A stretch of 64,000 nucleotides of DNA from Geobacter sp. (GTDB lineage Bacteria > Desulfobacterota > Desulfuromonadia > Geobacterales > Geobacteraceae), in the NCBI GenBank assembly GCA_003574885.1, contig PJFC01000007.1:1-64000 (forward strand), written 5' to 3'. This document shows positions 859 through 11,414 of this stretch, in pieces. Below the pieces are notes generated by a model. The model had not been told where the DNA came from. It was given only the letters and a program-made list of their open reading frames with translations, and searched no databases. Position 1 is the first letter of the stretch; each line of letters opens with the position of its first letter. Made by a program: the position numbers and the translations under genes.

Positions 859-2562
859 ATGAACCTGCGCACCTATCTGTCGTCCCTTCGAAGCACCTAT
901 TATTTCATGCTCAGCTTCGGCCTCCTCATGGGACTCATCTTTCCGTTCTATTCAGCTCTCTTCTTCGGCTCCCGCGCCTTTACCCCCCTGTACGTGATCG
1001 GTTGCCTCGTCGCCGGCGTTCTGGTCGGCTCCTTCTGCTACTACATAATCAAGCAGGTGATGAAGATTTACCTTGAGCGCCAATGGCAGGCGTTGAGCAG
1101 GCTGGCCACCAGCGACTGCGATACCGTTCTCACCGGCAAGGGTGACGAGTTGAATGCGCTCATGGGGTGTTACGACACAGTGCTGGAGAAGGTCCTCTCC
1201 ATGGTGAAAAACATCTCGATCCTTATGGACAAGTCAGCTCCGCTCAACAGACACCTGCAGGAAAAATCGCTTACCATGGTGACGGGAAACGAGCAACAGG
1301 CGGCAAAGGAAGAAGAAACCCTGCGGGCCGTGGAAGAGATGAATACCTTCCTGAACGTCCTCATCCGGGAGATCGAGGAACTGGCGGTGCGAACCGACGA
1401 GCGGGCGTCAATTTCGACGGAGATGAGCGCCACGACCGATACCATCGCCGAAAACATCAAGGACTATTCCTCTGCGGTGCTGGAGACCTCCGCCTCCATC
1501 GAAGAGATGGCGGTCAGCATCCGGCAGTCCGCGGACAACATAGAGGCGCTGGCGGTATCCACCGAGCAGACGTCGAGTTCCATCACCCAGATCAGCGCCG
1601 CTATCAGCAATGTCCGGGACAATGCCCAGCGGACCGCCGAGTGCTCCGAAGGTGTCCGCAAGCAGGCAGTAGACGGACTGCAGTCAATGGCATCGACCAT
1701 CAAGGCCATGAACGCCATCGAAAAAAGCACCGAGGAATCGTACGAAGCCATCCATCGACTTTCCGTGCATTCGGCACGCATCGGCAGCTTTCTCGAAGTG
1801 ATCCAGGAGGTGGTGGAGCAGACCAATCTCCTCTCCCTCAACGCCTCCATCATCGCCGCCCAGGCAGGGGAACGGGGGAAGGCGTTTGCCGTGGTGGCCG
1901 AAGAGGTCCGCTCCCTGGCCCACCGTACAGCCCAATCAGCACGGGAGATTGACGACCTGGTAAAGGGTATCCAGAAAGAGACTGCGGCGGTGCAGAGTTC
2001 GGTATCCCAGGGGAAGGATCGGATCAAGGAAGGGGTGAAAATCTCCGCCCTTACCAACGAAGCCCTGGTAAGGATCGAGGCAGGGGCCGAGGAGGCCTCC
2101 AGCATGGTGCAGAAGATTGCCACCGCAACCGTGGAGCAGGCTTCCGGCAGCCGGCTCATCACCGACGAGGCGGCAAAGAACCTGGACCGGGTAAAACAGG
2201 TGACGAGGGCTACCCAGGAGCAGGAGCGGGGGATCAGCATGATCGTCAAGGCGCTGGAGCAGATGCGGCTCCTCTCCCAGAAGATCACCAATTCGGCCCA
2301 GGAGCAGTCGCGGGGGAATCGTCTCTATCTCAAGAGCGTGCTTGAGGACAACGAAAAGGTCAAGAGGCTGCGTGATACGAGCATCCAGCAGATTATGATG
2401 GGGGATGTGCTACTGAACTACGTGCGTGAAGCGGGGCGGCTCATAGAGTCGAACGCTGCCCTGGCGAAGCAGAACATGGAAGAAATTGAGGCCATCACCG
2501 GCCTGAACAGCAAGCTCCAGAAAGAACTCAGCCCCTTCAGATCTCAAGATGGAGAACCCTGA
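859..2562 (+). CDS. Methyl-accepting chemotaxis protein without periplasmic sensor
   Basis: Predicted inner-membrane chemoreceptor of 567 aa. Two hydrophobic helices (about residues 15-35 and 43-65) are separated by only about eight residues, so there is no periplasmic ligand domain. A HAMP-like linker and a long coiled coil follow, with the signalling hairpin at about 315-355 ([10 protein letters not shown] then [18 protein letters not shown]). The hairpin differs slightly from the usual [18 protein letters not shown]. The ATG at 859 is preceded by GGGAG at 7-nt spacing. No che genes lie next to it. Its 3' end overlaps the convergent arsR-type gene by 26 bp. It may sense a cytoplasmic or membrane signal, which is inference. 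Confidence 0.93.
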
Positions 2563-2809
2563 CCAACTCCGCAAGCATCTCACTACGCAGGGCGTAATGG
2601 ATCCGAGTGCCGTCCCGACGGGCCTCCACGATGCCGTGCTCCTTCATCACCTTGAGATGCTGGGACACCACCGCCTGGGACATATTCAGGCACTCCCAGA
2701 TATCCTTCACGCACGCCCCTTCCCTTGCCAGTCCAGCAACAATCCTGAGCCGCACCGGATGACCCAGTACCTTGAGCAGCGACGCCTTTTCCTGAAAACT
2801 GTTGTCCAT
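2537..2809 (-). CDS. ArsR/SmtB-family transcriptional regulator
   Basis: Winged-helix repressor of 90 aa, typical of the family. The recognition region is [25 protein letters not shown]. Two cysteines (C33 and C40, in ACVKDIWEC) sit where many ArsR proteins place sensing thiols in or near helix 3, though the classical CVC metal box is absent. The start is ATG with AAGGA at 8 nt. It is the last gene of the leftward RND/redox run, directly after a rhodanese, a pairing reminiscent of sulfide- or persulfide-sensing ArsR regulators (BigR/YgaV/SqrR type). It is a natural candidate to bind the palindrome in the operon promoter at 11244-11265. The ligand is unknown. Confidence 0.9.
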
Positions 2810-2879: not shown

Positions 2880-3257
2880 CTAGCGAGAGAGAGGGTAGCC
2901 GCTGCGATACCAACCGACTATCCCGTCCTGCATGTTGTAGACCTCCCGGTATCCGTTTCCCGCCAGATACCCAGCCACCAGCCCTGAACGGGAACCGACC
3001 GCGCAGTAGACAAGCACCGGCCGGTTCTTCGGGATCTCGCCCAACCGCCGCTCGATCTCGTTAACGGGGATCAGGACCGATCCCGCCAGACGTGCCTGAC
3101 GGTACTCGTCCGGCGTCCGGACATCCAGCAGATAGACCGACCTGTTCTTTGCCAACAGCCCTCTGGCGTCGCGGGACACAATGTTTTTGTAACCCGCCGC
3201 AAAAGCCATACTCACCAGGGCCGTCACCATTGCGGCAACAACGAGCACCATTTTCAT
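2880..3257 (-). CDS. Exported rhodanese-domain protein
   Basis: Single-domain rhodanese of 125 aa with an N-terminal signal sequence (hydrophobic residues 3-20, ending AFA), so it probably acts in the periplasm or on the membrane. The catalytic cysteine is C85 in the loop YCAVGSRSG, and LLDVRTPDEY is the usual strand before it. Rhodaneses carry sulfane sulfur as a cysteine persulfide. The start chosen is the ATG at 3257, with GAGAGG ten bases upstream; an in-frame ATG at 3287 is the alternative. It belongs to the leftward redox run and precedes the ArsR regulator. Confidence 0.88.
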   Translation of the reverse strand: MKMVLVVAAMVTALVSMAFAAGYKNIVSRDARGLLAKNRSVYLLDVRTPDEYRQARLAGSVLIPVNEIERRLGEIPKNRPVLVYCAVGSRSGLVAGYLAGNGYREVYNMQDGIVGWYRSGYPLSR

Positions 3258-3321
3258 CGACACATAACCTCTCTTGTTTACGGCCATGAGTTCAGCCGGA
3301 TGACTTTGCTGTTGAACCGGA

Positions 3322-4152
3322 TCAGACTTCCAGCGTGTAGCCGACCTGTGCCGGATGAAACTCTGCCGGGAACTCCCGGGACAGTCGCGCCGCCGCAGTG
3401 AAACCGGTACAGTGACTGACACAGAGCTTCCGCACGCCATAGCCGCGCAGGGCTTTTATCGTCTCTTCCAACTGCTCCGGCGAAGAAAAGCCGAGATGGG
3501 TACCGCCGACCACGGCATAGACCTTCGAAACCCCCGTCTTTTCCCGCGCCAGATCCATGGTATTGACAACCCCCGCATGGCAGCAACCGAGCAGCAGAAC
3601 GAGCCCCTTGCCGGTGCTTATGATAAGGGACTGGTCGTCCGGCAGGGTATCGACGCTGCACCCTTTCTCGTCGCAGTAGAGACCGCTGTCCCCCTTTTCG
3701 AACGGGGTCAGGCGCGGCACCTCGCCGGTGAGAAAGAGTCCCGGTCCAACCTCCCGAAAGGATGATGAAAGATCGAAGGTAGCGCCGAGTTTGAGCAGTT
3801 CCGCCTCACCAAAGGGAATGCCGATGGCGACGCTATCCCCTGTATCCTTCACCCGGTAGCGGCATGCGAAGACCGATGGATGGGCCAGCACCTCCTTCGG
3901 CCCGCAGGTCTGCAGAAGGGGCTTCAGACCGCCGGTATGGTCGTAGTGGCCATGGGAAAGAATCACCCGCTCTGTCCGGCAGAGGTTCTTCCCCATCCGA
4001 CGGGCATTGTTGACCAGGGTCTCCCCCTGGCCGGTATCGAACAGGAGTGCCCCGCCACCGAACTCCACGAAAGCGGCAAACCCGTGCTCTCCAAGGGTGC
4101 CGGTCATGGGGCCGACACTGTTGTCACACAGAATGGTAATCCGGTAGCTCAT
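3322..4152 (-). CDS. Metallo-beta-lactamase-fold hydrolase
   Basis: A 276-aa cytoplasmic protein with the di-metal motif SHGHYDHTGG near residue 88, further histidines at GCCHAG and GGTHLG, and a C-terminal VSHCTG. The overall pattern fits the branch annotated as 7,8-dihydropterin-6-methyl-4-(beta-D-ribofuranosyl)aminobenzene 5'-phosphate synthase-like rather than persulfide dioxygenases. The ATG at 4152 is preceded by GGAGGGCACC. The neighbours (rhodanese, YgaP-like segment, DUF302) suggest a thiol or sulfur detoxification context, but the substrate cannot be read from sequence. Confidence 0.88.
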   Translation of the reverse strand: MSYRITILCDNSVGPMTGTLGEHGFAAFVEFGGGALLFDTGQGETLVNNARRMGKNLCRTERVILSHGHYDHTGGLKPLLQTCGPKEVLAHPSVFACRYRVKDTGDSVAIGIPFGEAELLKLGATFDLSSSFREVGPGLFLTGEVPRLTPFEKGDSGLYCDEKGCSVDTLPDDQSLIISTGKGLVLLLGCCHAGVVNTMDLAREKTGVSKVYAVVGGTHLGFSSPEQLEETIKALRGYGVRKLCVSHCTGFTAAARLSREFPAEFHPAQVGYTLEV

Positions 4153-4234
4153 GGTGCCCTCCTGCCATATTGCAACTCTGATAGTGAACGTTTCAACGTG
4201 TTCTATCACGTCTCACGAGATACCAGATCCGCTC

Positions 4235-4447
4235 CTATTTCCCGCAGCAATCTTTCGGGAACCTGGGTACTCCAGCCTTCTCCAGAATGGTAATCATGGG
4301 GCACCAGTTGGTAAATCCCGACTGGAACAGGTTGAGCCCGACGAAACCGGTGAACCAGAGCCAGTTTATGTTATGGAAATGGGCCAGCAGCAGTGACAGG
4401 ACGATAAAGCTGCCGGCGATGATTCTAAGCAGTCGGTCTACGTACAT
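4235..4447 (-). CDS. Small membrane protein, DUF2892 / YgaP-like C-terminal domain
   Basis: A 70-aa protein with two hydrophobic segments (about residues 8-24 and 28-40) and a C-terminal cysteine cluster ([13 protein letters not shown] then DCCGK). This matches the DUF2892 domain which, in E. coli YgaP, is fused to a rhodanese; here the two are separate genes of one operon. The SD AAGGAG is 9 nt from the ATG. It probably anchors or partners a sulfur-carrier protein at the inner membrane, inferred from the YgaP architecture. Confidence 0.8.
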
Positions 4448-4504: not shown

Positions 4505-4903
4505 TCACAGGGCGGCAAGCACCCGCTCCATCTTTTCCCTCACCTTGCGTGCCAGGTCGTTCAACGCTGGGTTGCCGATGACGCCGAGGGTTGCCACCGG
4601 GTCCATGGCCATCACCACCGTTTGCCCGTCGTCACCGGTGTAGACTACCACGTTGCAGGGAAGCAGCGTCCCGATGTTGAGTTCCCGTCCGAAGGCCTCC
4701 CAGGCGAGGGGGGGATTGCAGGCACCGAGGATGATGTAGTCGCGGAAGTCCCGGCCGAGCTTCTCCCTGAACTTTTCCTTGATGTCGATTTCGGTGAGAA
4801 CACCGAAACCTTCCTTCTGGAGTTCCTCCCGTACCTTTCGTTCCGCTTCTGCATAGGGGAGTGAAACGGTCCTGCCGAACGCATACGCAGTCGTCAATTC
4901 CAT
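4505..4903 (-). CDS. DUF302 domain protein
   Basis: A 132-aa soluble protein covering one DUF302 domain: an N-terminal VREELQKEGFGVLTEIDI strand-turn, a central ACNPPLAWEAF segment with a conserved cysteine, and LLPCNVVVYT. No signal peptide is present. The start ATG has AAGGAGG at 7 nt. DUF302 proteins are often found beside sulfur-oxidation or RND efflux genes, as here; the biochemical role is unknown. Confidence 0.87.
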   Translation of the reverse strand: MELTTAYAFGRTVSLPYAEAERKVREELQKEGFGVLTEIDIKEKFREKLGRDFRDYIILGACNPPLAWEAFGRELNIGTLLPCNVVVYTGDDGQTVVMAMDPVATLGVIGNPALNDLARKVREKMERVLAAL

Positions 4904-4960: not shown

Positions 4961-5386
4961 CTACTTCTCCAGCAACTCTGCCGCTTTCCCCGCCACAGCT
5001 CCCGTCAGTTCGGCACATATTCCCTTGTGATTGGCTCGGACGACCTTGCAACAAGTGGCACCGTACTGGCTCTTGAACCAGTGATGAAGCTCCTGGGTCA
5101 GCTTGCTGACCTGGCGCTTGTCGTGGGGAAGGACCAGGCCGATTGCCATGGTTCCTCCCACCACGGCCCCGCAGAGGCAGCCGGTACCCGATCCGCCGCC
5201 AAAGCCGCCCGCCATCTCAACCACCGAGTCGGGAATCTCCGGCCGCAAGTTGTTCTTTACCGCCATGAGCGCCGCCTCGGCACAGTTCATCCTGCCCGAA
5301 CGATAGAACCCTTCCGCCTCCAACGCCACCTTTTCTGCCAGTCCCAACCCTTCGTTCACAACCGGTTTCTCTTTCTGCCAGAACAT
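4961..5386 (-). CDS. C_GCAxxG_C_C family protein (putative redox protein)
   Basis: A 141-aa protein carrying the family signature: NCAEAA around C35, GCLCGAVVGG around C70/C72, and a later CCK pair. The conserved cysteines imply metal or redox cofactor binding; the family is uncharacterised. The start chosen is the ATG at 5386 with AAAGGAG at 6 nt; the longer reading frame would run back into the pump gene. It sits between the pump and the DUF302 gene, in the same direction. Confidence 0.86.
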   Translation of the reverse strand: MFWQKEKPVVNEGLGLAEKVALEAEGFYRSGRMNCAEAALMAVKNNLRPEIPDSVVEMAGGFGGGSGTGCLCGAVVGGTMAIGLVLPHDKRQVSKLTQELHHWFKSQYGATCCKVVRANHKGICAELTGAVAGKAAELLEK

Positions 5387-5417: not shown

Positions 5418-8400
5418 TCAAGCTCCGCCTTTTGCCGCCTTTTGCCGCTCCTGATGCCGCTGGAACAGGAAGTAGAGGAGCGGGATGGTAACCATGGAGA
5501 GGGCTGTGGAAGCCACCTCGCCACACATCAGGGCAATGGCCAGCCCCTGGAAGATCGGGTCGAAAATAATGACCACGCTCCCCACCACGACAGCCGCTGC
5601 GGTGAGAAGAATGGGCCGAAACCTGACCGCGCCGGCATCGATGATCGCCTCGTCCAGCGGCATCCCTTCCGCGCGCCTGAGTTCCGTAAAGTCGATCAGA
5701 ATGATGGAGTTCCGGACGATGATGCCTGCCAGGGCGATAAAGCCGATCATGCTGGTTGCGGTGAAAAAGGCGCCGAACAGGGCATGACCGGGGAGAATGC
5801 CGATCAGGGTGAGGGGGATGGGAGCCATGATGACGAGCGGTGTGGTGAAATTCCGGAACCAGGCCACCACCAGGACATAAATCAGCACCATGACCGCGGC
5901 AAAGGCAATCCCCAGGTCGCGGAAAACTTCATAGGTTATGTGCCATTCGCCGTCCCACTTGAGCCCTACCTTATCCTCGCTCCATGGCTGCCGTGACGCA
6001 AGCTGCTCGATGTGGTACCCCCCCGGCATCTTGATGGCATCGACCTCTTTCTGCATCTTGAGGATGGCATAGACCGGCGCCTCGATCACCCCGGCAACGT
6101 CGCCGGTGACATAGATGACGCTCTTCAGATTTTTCCGGTAGAGAGTCTTGTCCTCGTTCTGCCGTGTCACCCTCACCAGCTGGGAAAGGGGGACACTCCC
6201 TCTCGGCCCCGGAATATAGATGGAGGATAGTGCATCGATGGAGCTCCGTTGCGCTACCGGCAGCCTGAGATTTATTGCAACCGGCTCCTTCTCCTTGGGG
6301 AGATGGACAAGACCGGCATCCATGCCGTTCAGGGCTATGGTGAGGGTCTTCGCCACATCGTCGGTAGATATGCCGGCCAGCGCCGCCTTCTCCTTATCCA
6401 CCGCAAAGCTGTACTTCAGCTGGTCGTCTTCCACATACCAGTCGGTATCGACCACACCGGGAGTCTTGAGGAAGATCTCCTTAACCTTGCGGGCAATGTC
6501 CATCCGGGTCGCCTCGTCGGGGCCATACACCTCGGCCACCAGCGTGGAAAGGACAGGCGGGCCGGGGGGAATCTCCGCCACCTTGACACGTGCTCCGTAC
6601 TTGTCCGCAATCGTCTTGACCAGAGGCCGGATCCGTTTGGCGATGTCGTGGGACTGATCCTTCCGGTCTCCCTTGGGAGTGAGGTTCACCTGCAGATCGG
6701 CCACGTTTGCGCCATTGCGGAGATAATAATGCCGGACGAGGCCGTTGAAGTTGAACGGTGCCGAAATACCGACATAGGTCTGGAAATCGGTCACCTCCGG
6801 CACGTTGCGCAGCGCCGCCCCCATCTCGCCGGCTATCCGCGCCGTCTCCTCCAGGGTGGTGCCGTTGGGCGCATCGACAATCAGCTGCAATTCGTTCTTG
6901 TTGTCGAACGGGAGCATCTTGACCGTCACCAGTTTGAAGTAGATGAGGGAACAGGAGGCAAGCAGGAGCACGACCACCGTCGTAAGGAAACCGTAGCGAA
7001 GCGTCGGCGTGTGGATCAGCGGCCCCATGATCCGGCGGTAGAACGACGTAAGCCACATTTCACTGGCGGTTTCGTGAGCCCCCTCGTGGGACTCGTTGCG
7101 CATGAAGCGGTAGGAAAAATAGGGGGTGACGATGAAGGCGACCAGCAGGGAGAATATCATCGCCATACTGGCCCCGACCGGAATCGGCCGCATGTAGGGC
7201 CCCATCAGGCCGGAGACGAAGGCCATGGGGAGTATCGAGCCAATGACCGCGAAGGTGGCCAGAATGGTCGGGTTGCCGATCTCGTCCACGGCACGGACCG
7301 CCGCGTCAAGCGGCTTCAGCTTCATGGTGGTGAAATAGCGGTGGATGTTCTCCACCACCACGATGGCGTCATCCACCAGGATACCGATTGAAAAAATGAG
7401 GGCAAACAGCGTGATCCGGTTAAGCGTATAGCCGATGAGGTAGAAGAGGAACAGGGTGATGGACAGGGTGACCGGAATGGCAATGGCTGCCACCGCCCCG
7501 GACCGCCACCCCATGAAAACAGCGATCAGGATGGTGACCGAAATGGCCGCCAGGAACATGTGGAACAGGAGCTCGTTATTCTTCTCCTTGGCCGTCTCGC
7601 CGTAATTGCGCGTGACCGTCACCTTGATATCGTCAGGAATTACCTTCCCCTTGAGAAACTCGACCTTTTTCAGGAGATCCTCGGCAACCCAGGTGGCGTT
7701 GGCCCCTTTACGCTTGGCAACGGAGACGGTAACCGCCGGATAGCTTTCCTGCGGGTTGCCACTGATCCCCTTGGTAGCGGCGGCGGGGCCGGGGGTAAAG
7801 AAGACATAGTCCTTCGGCTCCTCCGGACCGTCAGTGATGGTTGCCACGTCGGCAAGCTTGACCGGCCGCCCCCCTGCGACATTCACCACCAGGTTGCGGA
7901 TTGAATCGGCGCTGTCGAGAAAGGCGCCCGTATCCACCAGGTAGTCGTAGTTGTCGCTCCTGAACGTCCCCGAGGGAAGAGCGAAATTCCCTTTCTGGAG
8001 CGCCCCCATAACCTGGAGGGGCGAAAGCTGGTGGGCCGCCATCCGCCCCGCATCGAGCTGCACCCGGATCTGCCGGGGGAGCCCCCCCTTGATGGCGGTC
8101 TCGGCCACATTGTCGCTTTTCTTCAGCTCATCGCACACTTCCCGCGCTACCCTGCGCATGGTGTAGTGGTCGTAGCGGTCGGACCAGAGGGTAAGGGTCA
8201 GAATGGGGACATCGTCAATGGATTTGGGAACAACCAACGGCTCCAGTGCCCCCGGCGGCAATGACGGTCGATTGCTCATCATCTTGTTGTAGAGCTTGAC
8301 GAGGGATTTTTCCATGTCCTCGCCGACCTTGAAGCGGACGGTGACAATCCCGAGGCCGGAACGGCTGGCGGAATAGACGTACTCCACCCCCTTGATTTCC

Positions 8401-8633
8401 CACATCTTCCCTTCAATCGGCTTGACCACCCGCTCTTCAACTTCCTTTGGCGTGGAACCGGGGAGTGGCAGGTAGATATCTACCATCGGCACCACAATCT
8501 GCGGCTCCTCTTCGCGGGGTGTCATCTGTACCGCAAAAACGCCGAGAAGCAAGGCGGCTCCCACAATCAGCGGGGTCAGCTTCGAATCTATGAAGGCGTG
8601 GGCAATCCTGCCGGCTACACCGAGTTTGTCCAT
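5418..8633 (-). CDS. RND efflux pump inner-membrane permease
   Basis: A 1071-aa proton-driven RND transporter, normal length for the family, with the duplicated 6-TM plus large periplasmic loop layout. The proton-relay region appears as [14 protein letters not shown] in TM4, and the second half contains [13 protein letters not shown]. The start is the ATG at 8633 with GGGAG eight bases upstream; the TTG five codons earlier is less likely. It lies between the membrane-fusion lipoprotein gene and small redox genes in one orientation. Substrate is unknown: the AcrB-like sequence argues against a pure heavy-metal CusA type. Confidence 0.95.
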
Positions 8634-8749: not shown

Positions 8750-9865
8750 CTATTCGATCCGTGCCCCGTCCACCACTTTCTCTACCCCACCGATGACGAT
8801 CTGCTCACCGGCAGAGAGGCCGGAAAGGACCTCCAGCTGGTCACCGACCGGTTTGCCGATCTTGACCAGCCGCATCCGGGCAATCTTATCCTTGTCCACC
8901 ACCCATACCGACGTAAGCGCGCCCCGCTCCACCACCACACCCTTGGGCACCAGCACCCCCTGCCGGCTGCCGACCGGGAACAATGCCCGGCCATAGCTGC
9001 CGGACCTGAGCCCCTTGGCGGCTACGTCAACCTTCACCGTAAAGGTGCGACTGGCAGGATCAACAGTCGGCACCACTTCGGCTATCCGGCCGGTTATCGC
9101 TGTGGAGACACCGTCCACCGCCACCGCCACTTTTTGCCCGACCCGCGCCTTGCCAAGCAATGATTCCGGAGCAGACGCCTCCAGCCGGTAGTTCCCCTCT
9201 TCCTCGACTGTCAGAAGCGGAGCGCCGGGGAAAACCGTCATCCCCACATCAACCGACTTGCCGGTGACTATGCCGTTGATGGGCGAGGTCACCCGATTGT
9301 ACCCCGCCATGGTCCCCGCCGCCTTAGCGCCCTCGCGAGCCTGGGCAAGCCCCGCTTCAGCCCGGGCAAGCCCCTGGGTTGCCATCTGCTGCTCGGCCTT
9401 GCGGGTGTCGAACTCCTGGCGGGTCACCGCCTGTTCCTGTAAAAGCTTGCTGTATCGCTCAAGGGTTACATCCGCGAGCTGCTTGCGGGCTCGAGCCTCT
9501 TCAACACCACCGGACGCCTGTTCCACCCCCGCTCGGGCACCTGCTGCGCCTGCCACGGTCTCAGTGGCCTGCAGCGTAACCAGCAGCTTCCCCCTGCCGA
9601 CCCGGTCCCCTTCCCTCACCAGCACCGCAGTAACTGTTCCGGGAATGCGCGCGGCGATCATCGCAGAATTGCGGGCGCGAACCGTCCCGACCGCCTCCAG
9701 CTGATCGGGGATTGCCGTGGCGGTAACCGCCTGCACCGTAACACCCTTCACCACCGGTGGTGCCGTTACCGTGGTGCCCTCTTTTCCATTTCCGCCACAG
9801 CCGGCGATTATCAGCATGCTCGCGGCGACGGCCAGAAATGCCGACCTCACAGCAACGTTCCTCAT
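8750..9865 (-). CDS. RND efflux periplasmic adaptor lipoprotein
   Basis: A 371-aa membrane-fusion protein (AcrA/MexA family). The N-terminal signal ends in a lipobox (LIIAGC, C23), so it is anchored to the inner-membrane surface. It shows split biotinyl-lipoyl half-motifs (ARIPGTVTAVLVREGDRV and VTSPINGIVTGKSVDVG) flanking an alpha hairpin of about residues 95-170, then a beta-barrel domain. The start ATG overlaps the stop of the TolC gene in an ATGA, with AGGAGG just upstream, so the two are translationally coupled. It joins the RND permease to the outer-membrane channel. Confidence 0.95.
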   Translation of the reverse strand: MRNVAVRSAFLAVAASMLIIAGCGGNGKEGTTVTAPPVVKGVTVQAVTATAIPDQLEAVGTVRARNSAMIAARIPGTVTAVLVREGDRVGRGKLLVTLQATETVAGAAGARAGVEQASGGVEEARARKQLADVTLERYSKLLQEQAVTRQEFDTRKAEQQMATQGLARAEAGLAQAREGAKAAGTMAGYNRVTSPINGIVTGKSVDVGMTVFPGAPLLTVEEEGNYRLEASAPESLLGKARVGQKVAVAVDGVSTAITGRIAEVVPTVDPASRTFTVKVDVAAKGLRSGSYGRALFPVGSRQGVLVPKGVVVERGALTSVWVVDKDKIARMRLVKIGKPVGDQLEVLSGLSAGEQIVIGGVEKVVDGARIE

Positions 9866-11202
9866 TTCACAACCTCCTTCAGGAATATCCCCGCAGCCTG
9901 ATACAGTCGGGCTGTGGACAGGGCATAATTGCTCTCGTTCTCGACCAACTGGGTGCGCGCCTGATTGAGAGCGGTCTGAGCATCCAGCAACTCAGTCATG
10001 GTCGAAAGGGAATTCTCGAAGCGCCTCCCCACTAGGCGGACCACCTCTTCAGCGTCCAACAGCCCATGACGGGCAACTTCAAGCCGCTTGCCCGCCTCTT
10101 CTCTCCGCATCGATGCCTCTTTCACCTGCATAACCACCTCGCTGCGGTAGCTCTCAAGATACTCGGCAGCCGCCTGCTGCTGCAGCCTCGCCTTTCCCAC
10201 TTCACCGTTCCGACGCAGGCCGTCAAACAGCTCCCAGCGCAGATTGCCAGCAACAATCCAGGAATCGTTATCACGGCCGAAGGGGATGTCGCGATCATTC
10301 TGCTGGTAGGTGGCACTGCCGTAGACCGTCGGAAGATACGACTTACGGGCCAGCCCCACTCCTATCGCTGCTTTTTCCACTCCTGCCTCGATCTCTTTCA
10401 CATCCTGGCGGTTTTCCAGCGCCAGGGTGATCAGCCGGGTGGTATCGACAGGGGGTTGCCAGGGCTGTGCGTCTTCTGCTATGTCGTAGCTCTGGCCGGT
10501 ATCACTCCCCATGGCCTGGCCGAGCCGAAGCTTTGCCAACTGCAGGTTATTGCCGGCGGTAATCTCCTGCTGCTCCATTTCCGACAAATAGGTACGGGCT
10601 CGGAGCTCGTCGGAACGAAGTCCGACTCCCGCCTCGTTACGGACAGAGGCAAGACGCTGGTGCTCCCTGGCACCGAGAACCGCCTGGTCAGCCGTCTTGA
10701 GGTAAGCCCGGGCCTTCTGCACTTCAAGATACGTCTGGTATACCTGAAAGGTTACCTCCTGGCGACGCCTTTCCAGGGCGAAACCGCGGGCATCCTCTTC
10801 TTTCCTGGCAATGTCGAGGCCACCACCGATGCTGAAATCCAGGAGGGGCTGTTCCAGGGTTAAGGCGGTCTGGAAATCGTTGTAGGTCGAGGGACTATTC
10901 AGATTGTTGATCTGGAAATCATTCTGGGTGAAGCGCCCCTGGTTCAGCTTCATCATGAATACGGAGGTCGGGCTGTTTGATGCCGCCAGTGTCTCGTTCA
11001 GGTAGATACGGGGGAAATAGCGGCTGCGGCTGATTGCAACGTCTTTCGCCGCGGCCTGGCGTTCATACTCCGCCGCCTTGAGAAGATGGTTATGCTCCAA
11101 AGCCCTCGTAACCGCTTCACGAACCGTGACCTGCCCGTTCTCAGCCCACCCGCCCGCAGGGAACATCATGGCCAGCCAGGCCAGCACAACAGCTCTCTTC
11201 AC
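9862..11202 (-). CDS. TolC-family outer-membrane efflux protein
   Basis: First gene of the leftward operon, 446 aa with a signal peptide cleaved near GWA-EN. Two repeats of long coiled-coil helices typical of TolC are visible (LEHNHLLKAAEYERQAAAKDV early, and LNQARTQLVENESNYALSTARLY at the end). The start is GTG at 11202 with GGGAGG at 6 nt. It forms the exit duct for the pump encoded by the next two genes. The promoter and a palindromic operator lie 40-85 bp upstream. Confidence 0.94.
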   Translation of the reverse strand: MKRAVVLAWLAMMFPAGGWAENGQVTVREAVTRALEHNHLLKAAEYERQAAAKDVAISRSRYFPRIYLNETLAASNSPTSVFMMKLNQGRFTQNDFQINNLNSPSTYNDFQTALTLEQPLLDFSIGGGLDIARKEEDARGFALERRRQEVTFQVYQTYLEVQKARAYLKTADQAVLGAREHQRLASVRNEAGVGLRSDELRARTYLSEMEQQEITAGNNLQLAKLRLGQAMGSDTGQSYDIAEDAQPWQPPVDTTRLITLALENRQDVKEIEAGVEKAAIGVGLARKSYLPTVYGSATYQQNDRDIPFGRDNDSWIVAGNLRWELFDGLRRNGEVGKARLQQQAAAEYLESYRSEVVMQVKEASMRREEAGKRLEVARHGLLDAEEVVRLVGRRFENSLSTMTELLDAQTALNQARTQLVENESNYALSTARLYQAAGIFLKEVVK

Positions 11203-11243
11203 CGGAAACCTCCCTTATCACCGACTTCCATCACCTGTACCTT

Positions 11244-11286
11244 TATATATGGTTTTACATATATATGCTTAACAAAATATTGTCAA
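11244..11286 (-). promoter_or_regulatory. Promoter and palindromic operator of the RND/redox operon
   Basis: Read leftward, TTGACA (11281-11286) and TATATG (11258-11263) are spaced 17 bp apart, a good sigma-70 promoter for the TolC gene. A perfect inverted repeat TATATATG-6 bp-CATATATA covers 11244-11265 and overlaps the -10 box. AT-rich dyads of this kind are typical ArsR/SmtB or TetR operators. The only regulator gene in the operon is the ArsR protein at its far end, so autoregulation is the simplest model. A single half-site TATATATG also covers the arsR start codon at 2807-2814. Confidence 0.65.
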
Positions 11287-11414
11287 CGGAAATTATACCG
11301 CATCATGCGTCCCTGTCAGTAGATCATCACTTACTTATACGGTTTTTCAGGCGGGGGAAAGAGATTGACAAACTGAGGTGCGGACCTTAGACTTGGTGCT
11401 CTGCGAGGTGACGA

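Follow-up and report, generated by a model that had tools for sequence, protein, structure and literature searches.

The 26-bp dyad overlapping the −10 element upstream of a run of nine same-strand genes probably acts as the operator through which a stress operon regulates itself; we consider the ArsR-family product of the last gene its most likely repressor and persulfide or polysulfide its most likely signal. The run lies on a contig of Geobacter sp. (PJFC01000007.1) of which the first 64,000 nucleotides were analyzed, and we refer to this whole stretch as the window. The letters themselves show that the run and the dyad are conserved, where the dyad lies, and that it is linked to the operon; ArsR binding, steric repression, derepression, and the nature of the inducer are what we infer. 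The features on which the analysis turns are the following.

2537 to 2809, minus strand: ArsR-family regulator of 90 amino acids, whose only cysteines are C33 and C40
2880 to 3287, minus strand: single-domain rhodanese with a signal- or anchor-like N terminus, an optional member of the run
3322 to 4152, minus strand: metallo-beta-lactamase-fold (MBL) protein akin to 2p4z/3h3e
4235 to 4447, minus strand: YgaP-like transmembrane (TM) protein (PF11127), with C49 present in 19 of 19 homologs
4505 to 4903, minus strand: DUF302 protein, an optional member of the run
4961 to 5386, minus strand: C_GCAxxG_C_C redox protein, by domain match
5418 to 8633, minus strand: RND permease, with MexK, MdtB, and 6vej as nearest solved sequences
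8750 to 9865, minus strand: RND periplasmic adaptor (MFP), overlapping the TolC gene by 4 bp
9862 to 11202, minus strand: TolC-type outer membrane efflux protein, with a GTG start
11242 to 11267, minus strand: 26-bp operator-like dyad, consensus AATATATA-N10-TATATATT, which overlaps the −10 and contains a palindrome (11244 to 11265) with the same center
11258 to 11263, minus strand: −10 hexamer of promoter P2, TATATG, after a 17-bp spacer
11281 to 11286, minus strand: −35 hexamer of P2, TTGACA, with AATA directly after it in 15 of 19 ArsR-bearing promoters
11292 to 11319, minus strand: P1, a second promoter-like pair (CTGACA-16-TATAAT) directly upstream of the P2 −35

A sequence-only reading of this DNA had listed nine co-directional genes with named domains, and we confirmed both the gene order (TolC, adaptor, RND, C_GCAxxG_C_C, DUF302, YgaP-TM, MBL, rhodanese, and ArsR) and the domains. 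The intergenic gaps, in run order, are −4, 116, 31, 57, 57, 82, 34, and 70 bp, with the MBL start at 4152 picked from an alignment; a longer frame begins at 4209. Five of the six cysteines of the C_GCAxxG_C_C protein are present in 18 of 18 homologs, and the sixth is present in 17 of 18. The same reading had named internal promoters as the finding that would split the run. A consensus scan detected no same-strand promoter inside the run, which is weak evidence, as the scan also misses the main promoter itself; AT-rich promoters of the P2 type may therefore lie within the run. Terminator-like sites are not in excess there (7 found on both strands versus 8.2 expected from shuffles). The ArsR gene and a convergent gene on the plus strand (859–2562), which by eye resembles a methyl-accepting chemotaxis protein gene, overlap at their 3′ ends by 26 bp (2537–2562), and positions 1–80 of the window hold imperfect AT-rich direct repeats, also seen by eye.

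We asked how widely this arrangement is shared. At an E value of 1e-15, the ArsR protein had matches in 57 of 58 genomes, its own included, and these matches split into operon ArsRs (at least 53% identity; 20 genomes) and a widespread paralog (45–52%). We compared the 20 regions around the best ArsR matches and found that the match closes a TolC–adaptor–RND run in 18; of the remaining two regions, one is cut by a contig end (L038), and the other holds the paralog without the operon (L051). ArsR is present in all 18 loci by selection, because the loci were found through it. The rhodanese was not found in 4 of these 18 operons (L032, L034, L035, and L046), MBL was not found in L045 and L046, C_GCAxxG_C_C was not found in L046, and DUF302 was not found in most; the RND gene was read in pieces in L036 and L049. 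On gene content, we conclude that the run is conserved across 18 ArsR-bearing loci within the order, some of which have lost genes. In a tree of the RND proteins, which leaves out L036 (RND in two pieces), L038, and L049, the ArsR label requires at least four changes, which would mean repeated loss or gain, in either direction. With its neighbors disregarded, the MBL protein was matched in 47 of 58 genomes at an E value of 1e-60 and is thus commoner than the operon ArsR. Beyond the order, none of those relatives among the best 80 that are less than 57% identical to MBL was found with an RND gene, many of these loci being short. At L141 (9941–11157), a distant MBL relative (45%) has an ArsR gene (40%) immediately after it and no pump genes.

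The rhodanese bears on a further proposal of the sequence-only reading, that the operon carries a split YgaP. The YgaP-TM gene (4235–4447) and the rhodanese gene (2880–3287) are separate, with the MBL gene between them, and inspection by eye showed a hydrophobic, signal- or anchor-like N terminus in each of 15 rhodanese homologs; the rhodanese of YgaP is cytosolic. With the rhodanese also missing from 4 of the 18 operons, the proposal is weak, and “YgaP-like parts” is the safer label.

Upstream of the run, a pattern search of the window returned an exact TATATATG-N6-CATATATA palindrome at 11244–11265, just as the sequence-only reading had reported it. The minus-strand promoter P2 consists of TTGACA (11286–11281), a 17-bp spacer, and TATATG (11263–11258), so the palindrome covers its −10, and the GTG start of the TolC gene at 11202 lies downstream. 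When up to three mismatches were allowed, the window held two matches versus a shuffle mean of 0.02, the second of which (11260–11281) overlaps the exact copy. In the 3.47-Mb genome from which the window comes, the palindrome is the sole copy at up to two mismatches, but a reversed control pattern also had one site at this level, and at up to three mismatches the control had 11 sites versus 7 for the palindrome pattern. Thus, the letters of the palindrome are not overwhelming evidence alone, and we dropped their rarity as a main argument. These control counts, and the fact that TATATA is both −10-like and self-complementary, are what one would expect if the dyad were merely an AT-rich −10 region that is symmetrical by chance. 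The exact palindrome is peculiar to the window genome and is not kept within the genus. We rejected it as the conserved unit; relatives keep only its place and its arms, in the form of the 26-bp dyad, whose AATATATA-N10-TATATATT consensus the window copy (11242–11267) fits at 13 of 16 positions.

A TTGAC-type promoter is present in 19 of 19 sequences (the 18 loci and the window; L038, with its cut contig, was left out of the promoter sets), and a TTGAC box and an ATATAT block upstream of TolC are common to them. The best AATATATA-N10-TATATATT sites score 12–16 of 16, and between 0 and 25 of 500 shuffles equal these scores, which are partly circular, as the consensus was derived from the same promoters. 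A score of 16 was reached in four promoters that form two near-identical pairs, and related sequences in this comparison are not independent. In 13 of 19 promoters, the distance from the −35 to the start of the best site is 19 bp, the same as in the window; it is 17 bp in L041 and 15 bp in L047, and the best register is shifted toward the −35 in L032, L033, L042, and L045. Conservation of the left arms is inflated by their overlap with the −10, and the right arm was no better than shuffles at p < 0.1 in L032 (where it fits 5 of 8), L040, L042, L045, and L046. The lack of a clear right arm in some promoters again suits symmetry by chance. Against such an origin, the right arm lies outside the −10, beats shuffles across genera, and is weak at promoters of the same type that precede paralogs. 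Near-exact sites, among the matches listed, also occur almost only at this operon: when we searched 58 genomes with the promoter-plus-dyad pattern, 23 sites with no more than one mismatch were listed, of which 22 preceded the operon (21 before its TolC homolog and 1 before a C_GCAxxG_C_C–MBL–rhodanese run), and the remaining site, G007:C58, lies elsewhere. We consider chance symmetry very unlikely and the dyad a likely operator of the operon. A separate TTGACTTCC...TATAT site, at G000:C1:437556–437598 (L253 1057), is present in three genomes of the genus and has a small, exported-looking reading frame downstream.

Some operons of this kind have no regulator gene. A scan of named genomes based on the MBL alignment returned nine TolC-led operons without an adjacent ArsR, in hosts including Trichlorobacter thiogenes and Geomonas limicola, and the operator search returned six more. 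No ortholog of the operon ArsR was found in the 14 genomes searched, which have ArsR-less, cut, or L100-type operons (among them G059, G062, G064, and G067, which by coordinates are G046, G043, G037, and G044; 98–100% complete). Many ArsR-less promoters keep the dyad, in part or whole. This finding rejected the rule that the dyad occurs only with ArsR; it also means that the site is no proof of a cis-encoded ArsR and that a second regulator may bind it. The mean right-arm score (of 8) was 6.63 for ArsR-bearing promoters (n = 19), 5.60 for ArsR-less promoters (n = 15), and 4.00 for paralog promoters (n = 10), versus shuffled means of 3.89, 3.89, and 3.56, respectively. Six of the 15 ArsR-less promoters came from the operator search itself, which biases their right arm upward, and L109 and L084 were mis-anchored in this comparison. 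Rank tests, in which neither kinship nor the biased selection of these six promoters was corrected for, gave 0.0001 for ArsR-bearing versus paralog, 0.008 for ArsR-less versus paralog, and 0.02 for ArsR-bearing versus ArsR-less promoters. Two further features differ between the sets: TTGACAATA is present in 15 of 19 ArsR-bearing versus 1 of 15 ArsR-less promoters (13 of 17 versus 1 of 15 after removal of identical strings), and a TATAAT box lies 0–8 bp upstream of the −35 in 12 of 19 versus none of 15. This box (part of P1 in the window), which the sequence-only reading had missed, goes with the regulator gene, and it might sustain a basal supply of the last-encoded repressor.

The dyads kept in ArsR-less operons could mean that the operator is mainly the site of the trans-acting, order-wide ArsR paralog, with the operon's own ArsR as a partly redundant partner. 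In 14 of the 14 genomes searched, the best ArsR matches are only 44–52% identical; 11 of these were placed in a tree, and 11 of 11 group with the paralog. In addition, an operon of an uncultured Geobacteraceae genome (L100; YgaP-TM, MBL, rhodanese, and ArsR) ends in an ArsR (3342–3590) whose long branch in the tree falls on the paralog side, and genomes that have no operon ArsR carry a similar promoter before a reductase/rhodanese gene (see below). Weighing against this account, almost every genome of the order has the paralog, which makes its co-occurrence uninformative, and the right arm of the paralog's own promoters is near the shuffles, though 2 of 10 reach 6. Moreover, the operon ArsRs cluster together, separate from the paralogs (98/99, from few columns and with the bootstrap not settled; the tree leaves out L037, L049, L084, L172, L182, and L185), and three features of the promoter are either limited to or more pronounced in operons that have the operon ArsR. 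Primary control by the paralog strikes us as unlikely. The paralog, whose copy in the window genome is L082 7086–7337 (on C10), is very conserved, with the motif ECNVKHIWECL; by eye it adjoins ABC transporter genes, and its promoter in the window genome has one TATATATATA arm. As for the proposal of the sequence-only reading that the operon is controlled by its own ArsR, the conserved run ending in ArsR, the dyad on the −10, and the ArsR-linked promoter features speak for it, but sole control is doubtful because no ortholog was found in the 14 genomes searched whose operon has no such ArsR gene and many of their promoters keep the dyad. Judged from these sequences, autoregulation is likely but not exclusive.

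The regulator itself belongs to the ArsR/SmtB family (PF01022, 3.1e-12; NF033788, 87 bits versus a cut-off of 55). Its nearest solved sequence is BigR (2.9e-12), followed by an ArsR, 8qkf, YgaV, and HlyU. A structure model (pLDDT 90) matches SmtB, CadC, CzrA, HlyU, BigR, and SqrR with Z scores of 15.9–13.9, so the fold does not separate metal from sulfur sensors. In this model, C33 lies directly before helix 3 and C40 lies inside it. C33 is present in 20 of 20 operon ArsRs, the window's included, and C40 is present in 17 of 20, with a cysteine two places on in the remaining three; many other operon ArsRs have extra cysteines at 31 and 71. (In this alignment, the L023 row, in a wrong frame and 18% identical, was not used, and the L051 row is the paralog.) The cysteine pair of the BigR/SqrR/YgaV type, one in helix 2 and one near the C terminus, is absent, with Ala25 facing BigR residue 42; the protein scores 67 bits against the curated BigR model NF040642, below its cut-off of 155, and the window has no exact match to the SqrR-type operator ATTC-N8-GAAT. 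By sensor residues and by the curated model, the window ArsR is not BigR-class, although it may still work like BigR.

An ArsR-family protein together with an RND pump could also indicate a resistance unit for metals, metalloids, or organometals, in which ArsR would bind a soft metal via C33/C40 and the pump would export it. SmtB, CadC, and CzrA are the top fold matches of the model, and its C33, directly before helix 3, is near the usual place of ArsR thiolates. Tributyltin derepresses E. coli ygaVP, according to excerpts of PMC9774250. The permease points the other way, being nearer to the solved MexK and MdtB than to ZneA and scoring 302.8 bits against the CusA/CzcA model TIGR00914 (cut-off 701.45), although it is also below the multidrug cut-off (471.6 versus 1250). 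This ArsR has two cysteines only, and rhodanese, YgaP-TM, and C_GCAxxG_C_C proteins are, to our knowledge, unusual partners of metal efflux. We regard a metal-resistance unit as improbable.

We instead favor reactive sulfur as the signal, with moderate confidence, by analogy with ygaVP and bigR and from the gene content and the similar reductase/rhodanese promoter. A dimer of an ArsR-family protein, most likely the product of the operon's last gene, would occupy the dyad and with it the −10 and the start of P2, which would exclude RNA polymerase and stop transcripts coming from P1 upstream as well. A thiol-reactive signal, for which persulfide or polysulfide is the most likely candidate, would modify C33 together with C40 or its neighbor and make the repressor leave the dyad, so that the RND pump could be produced along with the sulfur/redox proteins. 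Where the operon has no ArsR gene, this site may serve another ArsR, which could be the order-wide paralog.

Several known systems resemble parts of this arrangement. According to excerpts of PMC5823870, BigR recognizes the −10 region of the operon it controls and dissociates in response to sulfide and polysulfide, and that operon includes an MBL-fold enzyme. The window operon shares with that of Xylella/Agrobacterium a candidate site at the −10 and an MBL-fold protein, and BigR is the nearest solved sequence, but the cysteines here are C33 and C40 rather than the Cys42–Cys108 with which BigR senses, an RND pump replaces the TauE-related transporter, and the MBL protein is nearest to 2p4z and 3h3e, with persulfide dioxygenase names in 0 of the 23 solved matches listed. 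YgaV, in the excerpted text of PMC9774250, footprints on ygaVP near the start and the sigma-factor sites and is released by sulfide, and the second ygaVP gene encodes a rhodanese. As in E. coli ygaVP, an ArsR-family protein and a rhodanese protein are encoded in one operon here, and the Pfam family of the TM gene is named after the YgaP membrane domain; unlike in ygaVP, the YgaP-like parts are separate with MBL between them, an RND pump, C_GCAxxG_C_C, and DUF302 are added, the regulator is the last gene, and its cysteines are C33/C40 rather than the C31/C98 of YgaV. In Azospira suillum, sulfide raises RND pump genes and a DUF2892 gene, and deletions leave the sulfide oxidation rate unchanged (PMC5358917, in excerpt). 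The H2S-induced RND operon there includes SQR and a different gene set, and the likeness of the pumps is one of gene content. The yrk cluster (YrkD) of Bacillus licheniformis is a long sulfane-sulfur cluster with more than one promoter (PMC9918477, in excerpt). It too combines a rhodanese-like protein with a repressor, but its repressor is CstR-like, SQR and persulfide dioxygenase are present, and the genes named in that excerpt include no RND pump. We found no description of the window operon in the listed titles or abstracts of open-licence papers, and PMC12423496 had no match for the operator terms.

Taken further, the operon could represent a Geobacterales system for the export of reactive sulfur, in which an RND pump works with an exported rhodanese, a YgaP-type protein, and the C_GCAxxG_C_C redox protein under an ArsR sensor with a new C33/C40 pair and a sensor-linked tandem promoter, and in which the paralog takes over the operator where the sensor gene is missing; we put this full picture forward tentatively, as a possible but rather doubtful one. 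Polysulfides are compounds that bacteria living on iron and sulfur have to cope with, and the excerpts of the literature cited on these systems name no pump for polysulfide-type compounds. The conserved operon and its candidate operator provide a reporter and a defined regulator for testing RND export of reactive sulfur or thiol adducts, as well as a test of how an ArsR protein could sense reactive sulfur without the BigR cysteines, and the operons with and without the regulator gene form a natural series.

A promoter similar to that of the operon was also seen before the gene for a 564-aa protein of the CoA-disulfide-reductase type that includes a rhodanese domain. Reductase–rhodanese fusions are persulfide reductases in other bacteria. 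Close homologs (85–100%) are present in 8 of the 58 genomes, and in 6 of these (G006, G013, G016, G018, G022, and G033; loci L243, L246, L248, L289, L290, and L291) a TTGAC promoter, an ATATAT block, and a partial right arm lie upstream; the promoter is missing in the other two (G026 and G031). Five of the six promoter-bearing genomes have no MBL match at an E value of 1e-60 (G022 is 84% complete), and G033 has one. The window genome's own homolog (44%) was rejected as a second target, as it is without a TTGAC...ATAT promoter; it and the homologs in the three genomes of the same genus score 12–13 of 22 and have no such promoter. In G033, the reductase gene directly follows the promoter, and in G006 and G022 the two are separated by a NapH-like gene.
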